Assembly: GCF_005377625.1 (NCBI RefSeq)
Contig: NZ_CP040098.1
Span: forward strand, 186,001-250,000
DNA from: Desulfoglaeba alkanexedens ALDC
GTDB lineage: Bacteria; Desulfobacterota; Syntrophobacteria; Syntrophobacterales; DSM-9756
Direction: 5' to 3'
DNA: 64,000 nt
Shown here: positions 4,793-18,938 of the stretch, one piece after another
Layout: each line of letters starts with the position of its first letter
Numbering within the stretch: the stretch's first letter is position 1
The notes under the pieces: model-generated
Database searches by the model: none
What the model saw: only the letters and a program-made list of their open reading frames with translations
Told to the model about the DNA's origin: nothing
Translations under genes and position numbers: made by a program

Positions 4793-4893
4793 CACCTTGT
4801 TCCCAAGCTCCAGCTTGGGAACACAACTGTGCAGAAGCTCCAGCTTCGATTCCCATGAGGCCGTTCCCAAGCCGGAGCTTGGAAACGAGGGGA
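4793..4893. repeat. Dispersed nested-palindrome repeat family A, copy 1
   Basis: This ~100-bp unit has an outer palindrome with 11-bp arms GTTCCCAAGCT / AGCTTGGGAAC (4799-4822), a middle palindrome GAAGCTCCAGCTTC (4834-4847) and a second large one at 4862-4887. Other copies lie at 10027-10062 (variant), 18836-18892, 23089-23204, 44620-44716 (plus a fragment at 44785-44806) and 57356-57453, all intergenic. The rest of the 388-bp gap 4661-5048 holds families C and D and the tRNA promoter; no gene is seen. Confidence 0.85.
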
Positions 4894-8754: not shown

Positions 8755-8762
8755 AGATTATC

Positions 8763-8812
8763 TTAGAGGCTGTCTGAGAATACCCTTCACCCTTCTGGGG
8801 ATGGGGTATCCG
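8763..8812 (+). repeat. Dispersed repeat family C, copy 2
   Basis: About 88% identical by eye to 4657-4706 (six differences in 50 bp). It begins nine bases after the stop codon of the sigma-54 activator. Confidence 0.7.
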
Positions 8813-8860
8813 TTTTTTCGCGTAGGGGCGGTTCCCGAACGGCACTTAAGCCGCGTAGCC

Positions 8861-9150
8861 GCGTAGGGTGCGTGGAGCGAGGCGAAGCCGAGCGCAACGC
8901 ACCATGCCCAGCCGCCCCGCCGCATCACCGCGTAGGGTGCGTGCAGCGACCGCGCCGTCGGCGCGGGAGCGCAACGCACCATACCCAACCGCGTAAAATC
9001 TTCTCCCGTTATGGTGCGTTTCGCCCGCTGTCGCGGGCTTCACGCACCCTACGGGGTTTCAACATCCGACGTTTTGGTGCGTTGCGTTCGGCTTCGCCTC
9101 ACTTCACGCACCCTACGCATTCCTTGCACCCTACGCATTCCTTGTACCCT
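8861..9150. repeat. REP cluster, left flank of the RAYT gene (family B)
   Basis: Four REP-type units lie here: forward at 8861-8905 and 8930-8982, reverse at 9011-9053 and 9074-9119. Partial tandem ends CACCCTACGCATTCCTTG continue to about 9150. Each unit runs from GTAGGGTGCGTG through a variable inner palindrome to GCGCAACGCACCAT, so its ends GGTGCGT/ACGCACC pair and a GTAG tetranucleotide sits at the 5' foot. That layout is typical of REPs recognised by RAYT transposases. This 400-bp gap holds no other gene. Confidence 0.9.
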
Positions 9151-9155
9151 GCTCG

Positions 9156-9704
9156 CTACTCACCGCCAATGCTTTCGGGAAAAACCGGAACCCTGCCCGC
9201 GGCCCAATCCATGGGATACAACCCTGCGGCCACGTAACGATGAAAAGTCGAATAAGGCCAATCGGCGGGCATCGAACACCACCCATGTTTCACGGGGTTG
9301 TAATGGATGTAATCGACGTGGGCGGCAAAGTCGTTGTCGTCCCGGATGGCATGTTCCCAAAAGCGGCGCTGCCATAGAAGCCGTTCCTTGCGCCGGGCAC
9401 GGGAAGAATCCGGAGCGGGTTCGCCGGCCCAATCGCCGCATCGTCTCGATACCATCGCCTTAATCCGGCGCCAGCGCTCGGGGAAATCGGCATCGCCGGC
9501 CGGAAGCGTCAGGATGCAATGCACATGGTCCGGAAGCAGAACCCAGGCATCGATGGCAAACGGAAACGAAGTCCGTACGCAGGTGATGGCATCCCGCAGG
9601 GCCCGACGGGCCTTTTCGTGGCACAGCCATGGCCGGCGATCGTAAGTGACGAGGGTGAAGAAATATTTTCCGCCGGGAACAAAGTGCCTTCGGTAATTCG
9701 GCAT
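9156..9704 (-). mobile_element. REP-associated tyrosine transposase (RAYT), TnpA_REP family
   Basis: Y1/HUH single-strand transposase of 182 residues, related to IS200/IS605 TnpA. It shows YRRHFVPGGKYFFTLVTYDRR at the start, the metal-binding HUH pair in LLPDHVHCI (His60, His62), and the region DYIHYNPVKHG with Tyr132 and Tyr135 as candidates for the nucleophile. RAYTs act on REP palindromes rather than on their own ends. The start at 9704 begins MPNYRRHF and is preceded by GGGAGG; longer upstream starts lack support. REP arrays flank it on both sides, and length and motifs are intact, so it may be active. Confidence 0.93.
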
Positions 9705-9804
9705 GGCCCGCGCCTCCCTTGCGCCGACGGGATGCGGTGTTTTCGGGCGACGGGTACCCAAGGGTCGCACCGGGTGCGCAAAATGGCGTCCCGCGCGTTA
9801 AATC

Positions 9805-10446
9805 GTGGTGCGTTACGCCCGCTGTCGCGGGCTTCACGCACCCTACGGTTGCTTCTTGATCGGCTGGTGCCTTACGGGTGGACTCAAACCTCTTTGGTGC
9901 GTTGCGCCCGCTGTCGCGGGCTTCACGCACCCTACGGTTGCTTCATGGTTGAAATCGGTTGCCCGGTTTGTCAATGTAGACCCGCCTGATCGGCCTCGGT
10001 CTATACCTGATTATAGAGATACCCCCCCTTGTTCCCAAGCGGGAGGTTGGGAACAAGGGGGAATCGCCGGCCCGATTACCCATAGCCGTCTCCACCAATG
10101 GAACATTCGCCGCTCAGCCGCGTAGGGTGCGTGGAGCGAGGCGAAGCCGAGCGCAACGCACCATCACCGGCCCGCGTAAAATCTTCTCCCGTTATGGTGC
10201 GTTTCGCCCGCTGTCGCGGGCTTCACGCACCCTACGGTTGCTTCATGATCGGCTGGTGCTTTCGGGTGGACTCAAACCTCTCTGGTGCGTTGCGCCCGCT
10301 GTCGCGGGCTTCACGCACCCTACGGTTGCTTCATGATCAAAATCCGTAACTGCCGTCCGCAAACCTTGCTTCGAAGATCGGTTCAATCGCATGCCTCAGC
10401 CGCGTAGGGTGCGTGGAGCGAGGCGAAGCCGAGCGCAACGCACCAT
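9805..10446. repeat. REP cluster, right flank of the RAYT gene (family B)
   Basis: Units lie at 9805-9847, 9894-9937, 10194-10237 and 10282-10324 (reverse) and at 10120-10164 and 10402-10446 (forward). Two larger duplications are visible. About 90 bp at 9848-9937 recurs at 10238-10324, sharing TGATCGGCTGGTGC and GGGTGGACTCAAACCTCT. About 65 bp at 8990-9053 recurs at 10173-10237, sharing CGTAAAATCTTCTCCCGTTA. A variant family A palindrome sits inside at 10027-10062. The whole gap 9705-10688 shows no credible gene. Confidence 0.9.
10027..10062. repeat. Family A palindrome, variant copy
   Basis: CTTGTTCCCAAGC / GTTGGGAACAAGG arms surround a changed core. The central AGCTCCAGCT of other copies is replaced, and only the outer arms match. 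Confidence 0.6.
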
Positions 10447-10489
10447 CCCGAGCGCAACGCACCATACCCAGCCGCCCCGCCGCATCACC

Positions 10490-10632
10490 GCGTAGGGTGC
10501 GTGGAGCGAGGCGAAGCCGAGCGCAACGCACCATCCCGAGCGCAACGCACCATCCCGAGCGCAACGCACCATACCAAGCGCAACGCACCATACCAAGCGC
10601 AACGCACCATACCAAGCGCAACGCACCATCAC
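10490..10632 (+). repeat. REP unit extended into a 6 x 19-bp tandem array
   Basis: A complete family B unit (10490-10534) runs directly into tandem copies of its own 3' arm. Six 19-bp units starting at 10519, 10538, 10557, 10576, 10595 and 10614 read GAGCGCAACGCACCATCCC, with drift to AAGCGCAACGCACCATACC in the last three. A second, two-copy version follows the unit at 10402-10446. A run of twelve C follows at 10665-10676. There are no spacers, so this is not a CRISPR. Confidence 0.92.
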
Positions 10633-10688
10633 CGGCCCCCACGCTCGCACGTCCCATCTTGGCGCCCCCCCCCCCCTCCCCCGGCATA

Positions 10689-13139
10689 TTACGTGCCTTC
10701 GATCTGAACCGTCACCCTTCTTGCCGGGCCCGCGGAGGTTTGAAATGTGACGGCGGCTTCTTCGTTCACCCGCAGGCGCTCCCCGCTTCCTCCCGCCCCA
10801 ACGCGAACGGCACGCCCGGCCGGAAGGTTCACGATGAGGTGGAACATCGGCCTGATACCTTCCGGAACCTGGTAGGAAACCTCATGGACGATGTTTCCCT
10901 CTTTTCCGAAAAGCACCACCGCGTGCCCCCACAGGAGCCCTTCCGCAGCTCCGGCATCCACCAGGACGGGAGTTTCTGGTAAAGAACCCTCGTCGCCGGC
11001 AAGCCCGGGCTTGAGCCCCACGAGAAAGCGGTCCGCCTTGCGCTTTTCCTCAGGCTGAATTTCCAGACGCCAGAGCCCTGCGTCAAACCAGGGCTGCTCC
11101 GAAGCCCCTGCTTCCATGTTGGTGCCGTCCAGGTCCTCATCGTCCCCGTCCACTTCCACGTAGTATCGATAGTCCGGGCCGCCCACCTTGCGAAGGACAG
11201 CCTCTTGAGGCAGCAGGGCGTGCACCTGGAGCGCCGCTCCTTCCCTTTGGATCACCGCTCGACGATCCTTAGATTCCAGGATGCCGTTATACTGGTCGCC
11301 CACCAGCACGCGCTCTTGGGCCGTCTCCGGTTTCGACCAACTGTGGAGCAGCCACTTTTTCGTGAAATCGGCCTGAACGGCCGTCACCCGGTCGTAAATC
11401 ACCACGGCGTCCTCTTTCGTCAGGTACACCATAGATCGTTCCACACGTTCAACTTTGCCGCCTCGCTCGTTGTCGTCATAGTGCGTGTTGTTGTAGGCTC
11501 CGGTCAGGTCGCTCGCCACATAGACAAAACGCGGATCGTGGTTGTCGAAGGCCGTGATTCTCCCACCTTCATAGCGGCGCCCGCGGTGGAGGTTCGCCCT
11601 CCAGTCGGCAAGGCTGACCACGGCGCTTCCCGTGGGCATCACGATGCGCTGGCCGCCGTCGGCCACGTTGGTTTCGAAAAACCGGTTGGGCCGGACCTGT
11701 TCTCCGGGGCGAAGCACCAGCAGCGAATTGGCTGCCACCGTGCGGATGTAATAATGGAGCCGGTGCGGTGAGGTGTAGCCGCCGTAGGTGCCGCTCTTGA
11801 CAGCCAGCGGAACCTTCTTGGTGATGGTGAAGTGCCCGGCCTGATAATGGCCGTGATGCGTGAAGGAATGTCCCGCCTGAAAGGAAATGAAAGTGGCTTC
11901 CGGTCCCCAATCGGAACGGATGAACACTTGACCCATGCCGTCGTGACGGCCGAAGACGGCGCTTCGTGGAACCCGTCCTTCCAGCACTCCGAGGTCCTTC
12001 AAGGCGTCTTCCGCACCATGATCCCATTCGGCAAGACCCCGAAGGAGCGGGATTCCCCAGCGATGACCGCTGTAATAGGCATCGCCGCCGTGAAGACCGG
12101 TGAGATACCGGGAATAATCCCGAAAGATGGGAAGGCTCGTTCCCAGCGTCACAAGATCGATGACCCGCTGAGTTTCGTCTTTCAGGTCGTTTCGAGGGCC
12201 CGTGTCGCCGAAAAGGGCGAAGCGCCCGATGGGTTCCGTCCCGTGAATGGTCCAAAGGCCCAATCGGGTGAGCGTATCGGCCATGAGGGCGTTCAGAGCC
12301 GGTTCCTTCACGGCGTGTAGATGCGCAAGACAGGCCAGGGCGAAAGGAAACGCCCGGTTGTTGATCCAGTAATTGTAGCCTTCGGGCCATCCGCCGCTCA
12401 GGCGAAACGCTTCCACCGATTCGAGAAAATGCCGTTGGGCCTGAGCTCGAAGCGCCATGTCTTCAGGACCTTGAGGGTCCATGGCGGCGGCCACCACCCA
12501 GGCGGAAGCCGCAAGCTGCGTTCTTCCGTGCCAAAGCGATGCCGAACCGCCGTCAAGGACCAGCATGGAATCTTCCAGGTTTTTGCGGAGCTTCAGGTTC
12601 AGGCGCTGGCGCTTTTCCGGGCTCCAGGCGGGATGGTCCCCCAGGAGGTCGTACGTAAAGGCCATTTCCAGCCCGTTCCCATAATTTCCTTCCGCCCGCG
12701 GTGTGTCCAGGACGACCTCGAGCAGCCTTTCCACCGCACTCCGGCCGGCCGCTTCATCGCCCCGGCAAACCCAGGCAACCGCTCCGTTCATGATCCCTTG
12801 GCCCGAACCGACCCCGTCCACCTGTTTTCTGAAGGCCGTGTCCGTTTCATAGCGGCTCCGAAGTCGAAACGTAGACTCCTTAGCGGAAAAGAGAATCCGC
12901 GGATGCCCTGAAACGGGCTCTCCCCGCAGTGCCTCGGGATGGTACCTCGGGCCGGGTTTTACGGCCTCGGCCACCTGTTCCGGAAACACGCCGAATTTGC
13001 GGGCCGCTTTCACCACCAGCTGCCGCGGGGTGAGGTCATACGAACGCAGGACCGTAAAGCCCACATAGGCCCCACCGACCAGGCTCACCAAACCCCAAAG
13101 GGCCAGCGCGTGCCACAGGATTCGAAATAAACGTTTCAT
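10689..13139 (-). CDS. Heparinase II/III-family polysaccharide lyase-like protein, membrane-anchored
   Basis: The 816-residue protein starts with a signal anchor (residues ~7-30, LWHALALWGLVSLVGGAYVG). It continues with an alpha/alpha-toroid region (LWHGRTQLAASAW, GGWPEGYNYW) and the heparinase II/III-like core TFISFQAGHSFTHHGHYQAGHF with PLAVKSGTYGGY, then a beta-sandwich C-terminal half. The His/Tyr-rich HHGHYQAGHF segment resembles the active-site region of this superfamily, which includes heparin and alginate lyases. The substrate is unknown. It starts 56 bp after the PaaK-like gene on the same strand; heparinase- and CapK-like genes are often found together in exopolysaccharide loci. Similarity is recognised by motif only. 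Confidence 0.78.
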   Translation of the reverse strand: MKRLFRILWHALALWGLVSLVGGAYVGFTVLRSYDLTPRQLVVKAARKFGVFPEQVAEAVKPGPRYHPEALRGEPVSGHPRILFSAKESTFRLRSRYETDTAFRKQVDGVGSGQGIMNGAVAWVCRGDEAAGRSAVERLLEVVLDTPRAEGNYGNGLEMAFTYDLLGDHPAWSPEKRQRLNLKLRKNLEDSMLVLDGGSASLWHGRTQLAASAWVVAAAMDPQGPEDMALRAQAQRHFLESVEAFRLSGGWPEGYNYWINNRAFPFALACLAHLHAVKEPALNALMADTLTRLGLWTIHGTEPIGRFALFGDTGPRNDLKDETQRVIDLVTLGTSLPIFRDYSRYLTGLHGGDAYYSGHRWGIPLLRGLAEWDHGAEDALKDLGVLEGRVPRSAVFGRHDGMGQVFIRSDWGPEATFISFQAGHSFTHHGHYQAGHFTITKKVPLAVKSGTYGGYTSPHRLHYYIRTVAANSLLVLRPGEQVRPNRFFETNVADGGQRIVMPTGSAVVSLADWRANLHRGRRYEGGRITAFDNHDPRFVYVASDLTGAYNNTHYDDNERGGKVERVERSMVYLTKEDAVVIYDRVTAVQADFTKKWLLHSWSKPETAQERVLVGDQYNGILESKDRRAVIQREGAALQVHALLPQEAVLRKVGGPDYRYYVEVDGDDEDLDGTNMEAGASEQPWFDAGLWRLEIQPEEKRKADRFLVGLKPGLAGDEGSLPETPVLVDAGAAEGLLWGHAVVLFGKEGNIVHEVSYQVPEGIRPMFHLIVNLPAGRAVRVGAGGSGERLRVNEEAAVTFQTSAGPARRVTVQIEGT

Positions 13140-18835: not shown

Positions 18836-18938
18836 TCGAAGCTGGAGCTTCGGCTGAGTTGTGTTCCCAAGCTGGAGCTTGGGAACAAGGTGGAAGGCGT
18901 AGGGTGCGTGAAGGCCGCGCCTGCGGCCGTAACGCACC
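18836..18938. repeat. Family A copy fused to a family B (REP) copy
   Basis: 18836-18892 is a family A unit (GTTCCCAAGCT/AGCTTGGGAAC arms). 18897-18938 is a REP unit beginning GTAGGGTGCGTG with the inner palindrome GGCCGCGCCTGCGGCC and an ACGCACC end. This is the only REP B unit outside the RAYT island. The remainder of 18677-19152 shows no gene. Confidence 0.75.

Follow-up and report, generated by a model that had tools for sequence, protein, structure and literature searches.

The closest described system is the REPtron of Escherichia coli, in which Y and Z REPs lie in both orientations around the gene for the transposase TnpAREP (RayT) and hundreds of further copies are dispersed. These REPs have a GTAG foot, a 7-bp lower stem, a mismatched middle in the form of an AA/GC bulge, and a variable upper stem. 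In vitro, E. coli TnpAREP requires GTAG and the unpaired mid-stem; the sequence of the upper stem or of the loop can be swapped, but the upper stem-loop cannot be removed (PMC8266576). Residues W94, Q95, E100, H101 and R104 of the protein have roles in contacting GTAG (PMC6006769). Among the 24 consensus families of GTAG REPs given by Di Nocera 2013 (PMC3733652), GTAG-3 and GTAG-14 are described with constant stem ends that enclose several alternative, self-complementary inner loops per genome, and GTAG-23 of Thermomicrobium roseum is described as occurring in blocks at few loci and not dispersed.

In this paper we analyse a 64,000-nucleotide stretch of the Desulfoglaeba alkanexedens ALDC genome (the window, to which positions refer unless the genome is named), in which a RAYT gene lies within an island of short palindromic units. 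The locus is very probably a REPtron, composed of an E. coli-type TnpAREP (putatively of Bertels group 2 / Quentin subclass 2.2) and its cognate REPs. Its RAYT-REP system belongs to a known kind of element and as a REPtron the locus is ordinary; it is remarkable for repeats that have hardly spread and for variation that is restricted to the tip of the unit.

The open reading frame of the RAYT, as listed, opens with a GTG start, and the homologous part begins at residue 23 (MPNYRRHF). Both elements of the Y1 HuH core are present, the HuH motif as DHVH and the Y---NP tyrosine motif as the catalytic YIHYNP, and the GTAG-contact segment reads WQRRFWEHAIR. The protein is recognised by NF047646, the NCBI model for REP-associated tyrosine transposases, at 3.6e-59, scores just over the cut-off of Pfam Y1_Tnp, and has a single PDB match, E. 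coli TnpAREP (4ER8, E=5.9e-49). The GTAG-contact segment is conserved between the two homologous proteins, with W94, Q95, E100, H101 and R104 identical in the alignment to 4ER8; for the E. coli lower-stem contact G32 there is no clear counterpart. The comparison with subclass 2.2 is one of motifs only, YIHYNP being the 2.2 motif and the HuH motif being DHVH here versus DHLH in 2.2. An IS200/IS605 insertion sequence was ruled out, as the gene is present in a single copy in the genome and falls under the RAYT model. The next RAYTs of the genome are approximately 53% identical to it, and its true IS200-like genes are represented by three different copies that score equally.

The pattern GTAGGGTGCGT-N10-40-ACGCACC has 12 matches in the window versus none in 100 shuffles. 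All 12 have the foot GTAGGGTGCGTG and the ACGCACC end in common, and 11 of them (5 plus, 6 minus) are full GTAG-GGTGCGT…ACGCACC units at 8863-10532, a span of about 1.7 kb, with U1-U4 downstream and U5-U11 upstream of the gene (Table 1). GT[AG]G-tagged palindromes are thus found on both sides of the RAYT within 1 kb. The initial annotation, which had reported at least eleven units in both orientations around an intact RAYT, a common foot and ACGCACC end, and a single further unit in the rest of the window (U12), was accurate in each of these respects. It had missed the six 3'-half units (10455-10629) and the 5'-half fragments (9126-9150), of which there are two, as well as the duplication of whole spacers. 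The RAYT-REP pairing that it had taken as established is supported here by the family models, by 4ER8 and the GTAG-contact residues, and by GTAG-GGTGxxx stems beside RAYTs of the same clade elsewhere.

Table 1. The RAYT gene, REP units and partial units (window positions), and unit clusters of the genome (last four rows, genome kb).
Feature	Position	Strand	Evidence
U1, full REP unit, apical type A	8863..8903	+	pattern match
U2, full unit, apical type B (genome-unique)	8932..8980	+	pattern match
U3, full unit, apical type C	9013..9052	-	pattern match
U4, full unit, type A variant	9076..9116	-	pattern match
5'-half (foot) fragments after U4, tandem, 18-bp period, last degenerate	9126..9150	-	
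RAYT / TnpAREP gene, intact, 204 aa	9156..9770	-	ORF list, family models, 4ER8 alignment
U5, full unit, type C	9807..9846	-	pattern match
U6, full unit, type C	9896..9935	-	pattern match
U7, full unit, type A	10122..10162	+	pattern match
U8, full unit, type C	10196..10235	-	pattern match
U9, full unit, type C	10284..10323	-	pattern match
U10, full unit, type A	10404..10444	+	pattern match
3'-half unit, single, immediately after U10	10447..10465	+	
U11, full unit, type A	10492..10532	+	pattern match
3'-half units after U11, five in tandem, 19-bp period	10535..10630	+	
U12, full unit outside island, fifth apical type	18899..18938	+	pattern match
Cluster of 4 units	159.35-159.57 kb		
Cluster of 11 units (island)	194.86-196.53 kb		
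Single unit	204.9 kb		
Cluster of 3 units	2124.66-2125.24 kb		

Across the 3.37-Mb contig the exact pattern identifies 19 distinct full units, which occupy 4 places (each nested match near 159 kb being counted once), and two of the four clusters have no RAYT nearby. The local enrichment that had been claimed is therefore real, with 11 of the 19 units in 1.7 kb, that is, 58% of the genomic units in 0.05% of the genome, around the RAYT. A covariance model for degenerate copies, built from 17 units, returned the 19 units, one weak extra (1456716, E 6e-5) and noise, so that decayed copies are almost lacking genome-wide. The high copy number and intergenic dispersal of a classical REP family are not seen, and the contrast with the hundreds of dispersed REPs of E. 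coli is marked. Searches of seven same-family genomes found no GGTGCGT-type unit and no RAYT of comparable similarity. Neither an even genome-wide spread nor identical arrays in all relatives, the two outcomes named beforehand as contrary to the claim, was encountered. Rfam gave no match at gathering score, and the reading as an RNA family was dropped; a text search of the literature for the motif GTAGGGTGCG gave nothing on REPs by title among the matches listed.

In an alignment of 17 units the invariant positions are GTAG, GGTGCGT and its partner ACGCACC, G12, and C-G-N-A on the far side. In 16 of the 17, the segment that separates the lower stem from the apical hairpin reads GNA on each strand, the exception being the unit at 2124885 with GGC on the 5' side. 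The consensus fold consists of GTAG, a lower stem of 7 bp, a 3x3 internal loop and an apical hairpin, and all six representative units fold better than their own shuffles (z -2.9 to -6.2). Opposed GNA triplets, as putatively here, would form sheared G.A pairs that bracket the middle base. In other RAYT clades a G.A first mismatch holds in 46 of 109 distinct units, so that it is a feature of some clades and not universal. The layout of foot, lower stem, mismatched middle and variable upper stem is that of the E. coli REPs, whereas the middle is a 3x3 GNA/GNA loop in place of their AA/GC bulge.

The apical sequences are mutually unrelated yet always self-complementary. Tip A (GGCGAAGCC) is carried by U1, U7, U10 and U11, with a variant in U4, tip B (CCGCGCCGTCGGCGCGG) by U2 alone, and tip C (CCCGCGACAGCGGG) by U3, U5, U6, U8 and U9. 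The island thus holds four inner palindromes, in line with the earlier count of at least four; U12 adds a fifth and the other genomic loci further ones. The types include GC alone (159 kb), GCGA-GGC...GCC-GAGC and a 7-bp version of it, GCCCGC...GCGGGC, GGCCGC...GCGGCC, and GTTCCGCC...GGCGGGAC. The earlier description of fixed outer arms with replaced inner stems was right but incomplete, since the GNA/GNA internal loop is also fixed in nearly all units. At the tip, structure appears to be required and sequence to be free, as the published TnpAREP biochemistry predicts. A variable tip in a fixed frame is expected for such a TnpAREP and is not by itself proof of recent activity. GTAG-3 and GTAG-14, as described, are alike in this respect and differ from the window units in arm sequence and in the strong clustering of the latter.

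A tree of 98 RAYTs places the window RAYT on a long branch within a clade of 30 (support 100/98). Stems of the form GTAG-GGTGxxx recur in this clade, where many RAYTs are accompanied by REPs of this kind with loops of 2-3 nt; examples are GTAGGGTGCGTTTCACGCACC, next to the RAYT in genome G061, and GTAGGGTGCATTCCATGCACC, from Methylococcaceae. GTCGGGT stems belong to a separate, fully supported clade of 23, and GTTGGGT stems are found mainly with cyanobacterial and desulfobacterial RAYTs. The arms therefore follow the RAYT clade, and it is the middle of the unit that differs, from a 3-nt loop to a TA/TA extension with a tip (G113) and to GNA/GNA with a tip (the window). Among the nearest clade members with similar arms, the REPs mostly lack an upper stem and have a loop of 2-3 nt, so not every RAYT of the clade needs the middle and apical parts. 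Units whose arms are GGTGCGT, GGTGCGC or GGTGGGC are spread over many contigs in G061, G072, G109 and G113, which shows that similar arms are able to disperse in other genomes.

The same genome carries a second REPtron set at 733-757 kb, with four RAYTs that are about 53% identical to the window RAYT and 39 units of two types (GTAGGGCGCAATAAGCGAAGCGCATTGCGCC, GTAGGGCGGATTAGCGGAGCGTAATCCGCC) in dense, regular, alternating arrays. No unit of this set was found in the genome outside these 25 kb. The two sets are alike in having homologous RAYTs and dense, confined REPs; the second differs in its stems (GGCGCAAT, GGCGGATT), its uniform inner loops and its regularly alternating orientation. Since it too is confined, REP confinement is a trait of the genome and is not peculiar to the window locus. 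GTAG-23, as described, resembles the island in its blocks at few loci and belongs to another genome and family.

A different palindrome, GTTCCCAAGC-TCCA-GCTTGGGAAC, is dispersed over 470 sites in the 3.37-Mb genome and occurs in the window at 4799, 10031, 18863, 23095, 23174 and 44623. It belongs to a longer element of two hairpins, after which GAAGCTCCAGCTTC often follows. All four GGTGCGT-unit loci have a copy within 96 bp, and the island copy (10031-10054) has an unusually long stem, CCCCCTTGTTCCCAA...TTGGGAACAAGGGGG. None was found in 73 kb from four same-family genomes, and neither a transposase nor a published description was found for it. The RAYT-less cluster at 159.33-159.59 kb of the genome, with four minimal units and tandem partial units, adjoins a four-fold tandem of a 65-bp element that has GTTCCCAAGC...GCTTGGGAAC and the perfect palindrome GTAGGGGCGGGTTT...CCCGCCCCTAC.

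The spacers of the island are themselves repeated: U1-U2 and U10-U11 have 27 of 28 bases in common, U5-U6 and U8-U9 have 44 of 47, and U2-U3 and U7-U8 agree exactly over some 24 bases. An 88-bp tandem duplication spans U10-U11, and the partial tandem repeats of the 159-kb cluster resemble the half units of the island. Because most copies have common spacers, segmental and tandem duplication is indicated and not repeated transposition, and the island would have arisen mainly by local duplication of this kind from few seed units. Between duplicated blocks the units are identical at 119 of 120 positions and the spacers at slightly fewer, numbers that are too small to prove selection or conversion. 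Such duplications, together with the 19-bp half-unit arrays and a cluster at 159 kb that grew in tandem with no RAYT near, are also what host replication slippage and unequal recombination alone would produce, with the RAYT a bystander or domesticated otherwise. We consider this improbable, as it leaves unexplained why these units surround this RAYT and a different type the other four, and why stem type tracks the RAYT clade. The left flank of U2 is homologous to the left flank of U11, and its right flank to the right flank of U7. U11 and U7 both have tip A; U2 has tip B, with GCGA/GAGC and the outer parts retained. It probably represents an in-place replacement of the apical hairpin, and is the only direct sign of such an event at a fixed site. 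No donor is seen, since tip B was found nowhere else in the genome at up to 3 mismatches; possible causes are template switching, gene conversion from a donor since lost, or an ancestral tip B that gave way to A at other sites. Template switching, which the initial annotation had proposed, is thus one candidate among several, for a single unit. A broader reading, in which apical hairpins are actively exchanged between units by template switching or gene conversion as the folded strand is replicated and give combinatorial REP diversity, would suit U2, the several unrelated, self-complementary tips in identical arms, and half-unit arrays with breakpoints within the apical arm, the expected product of polymerase slippage at a hairpin. 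It seems rather unlikely to us, with one clear case that drift with compensatory change or a lost donor explains equally. There is likewise little probability that wholesale tip replacement by template switching within a conserved frame (GTAG, lower stem, GNA/GNA) goes together with a restriction of the REPs in cis near the gene in this lineage.

The island (8755-10689) coincides with a synteny boundary. The two regulator genes to its left have conserved counterparts, about 65-72% identical, in four same-family genomes; nothing else of the first 25 kb of the window was found within up to 20 kb around these regulators in the four relatives, and the seven family genomes lack the right-hand gene (10689-13139). 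Synteny with the four relatives gave no empty site and, as only the two left regulators are conserved, the right junction is not placeable. It is a real possibility, somewhat short of an even chance, that the whole island arrived recently as one block by horizontal transfer. The conserved left and absent right neighbors, the absence of the RAYT and units in this form from the seven genomes, and the near lack of decayed units would agree with this, but the RAYT and the window have the same GC content (0.61 and 0.615), no near-identical donor was found (best identity about 58-60%), and there are further unit clusters at distances of 35 kb and 1.9 Mb. Recent activity, suggested earlier from the local density, is plausible given near-identical units, few decayed copies and absence from the family, although the common spacers point to duplication.

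Returning to the REPtron reading, we infer that the RAYT acts on the GGTGCGT units, and a route of amplification can be proposed. The RAYT would bind one REP strand in its hairpin form, recognising the GTAG foot, the lower stem of 7 bp and the mismatched mid-stem, and would cut and rejoin single-stranded DNA. In this way units would have been seeded close to the gene and at a few sites beyond it. Most of the later growth of the island would have come from local duplication, both of units together with their spacers and of half units. The apical hairpin would have to exist with its sequence unread, and could drift or be replaced while it stayed self-complementary.

The system offers a compact natural series for RAYT recognition, in which a constant foot, lower stem and internal loop are set against at least six apical hairpins. 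This series adjoins its presumed enzyme, in a genome with a second, differently specified RAYT-REP set. Both sets are confined, whereas units with similar arms are dispersed in relatives, and the question of why REPs sometimes fail to spread becomes testable.
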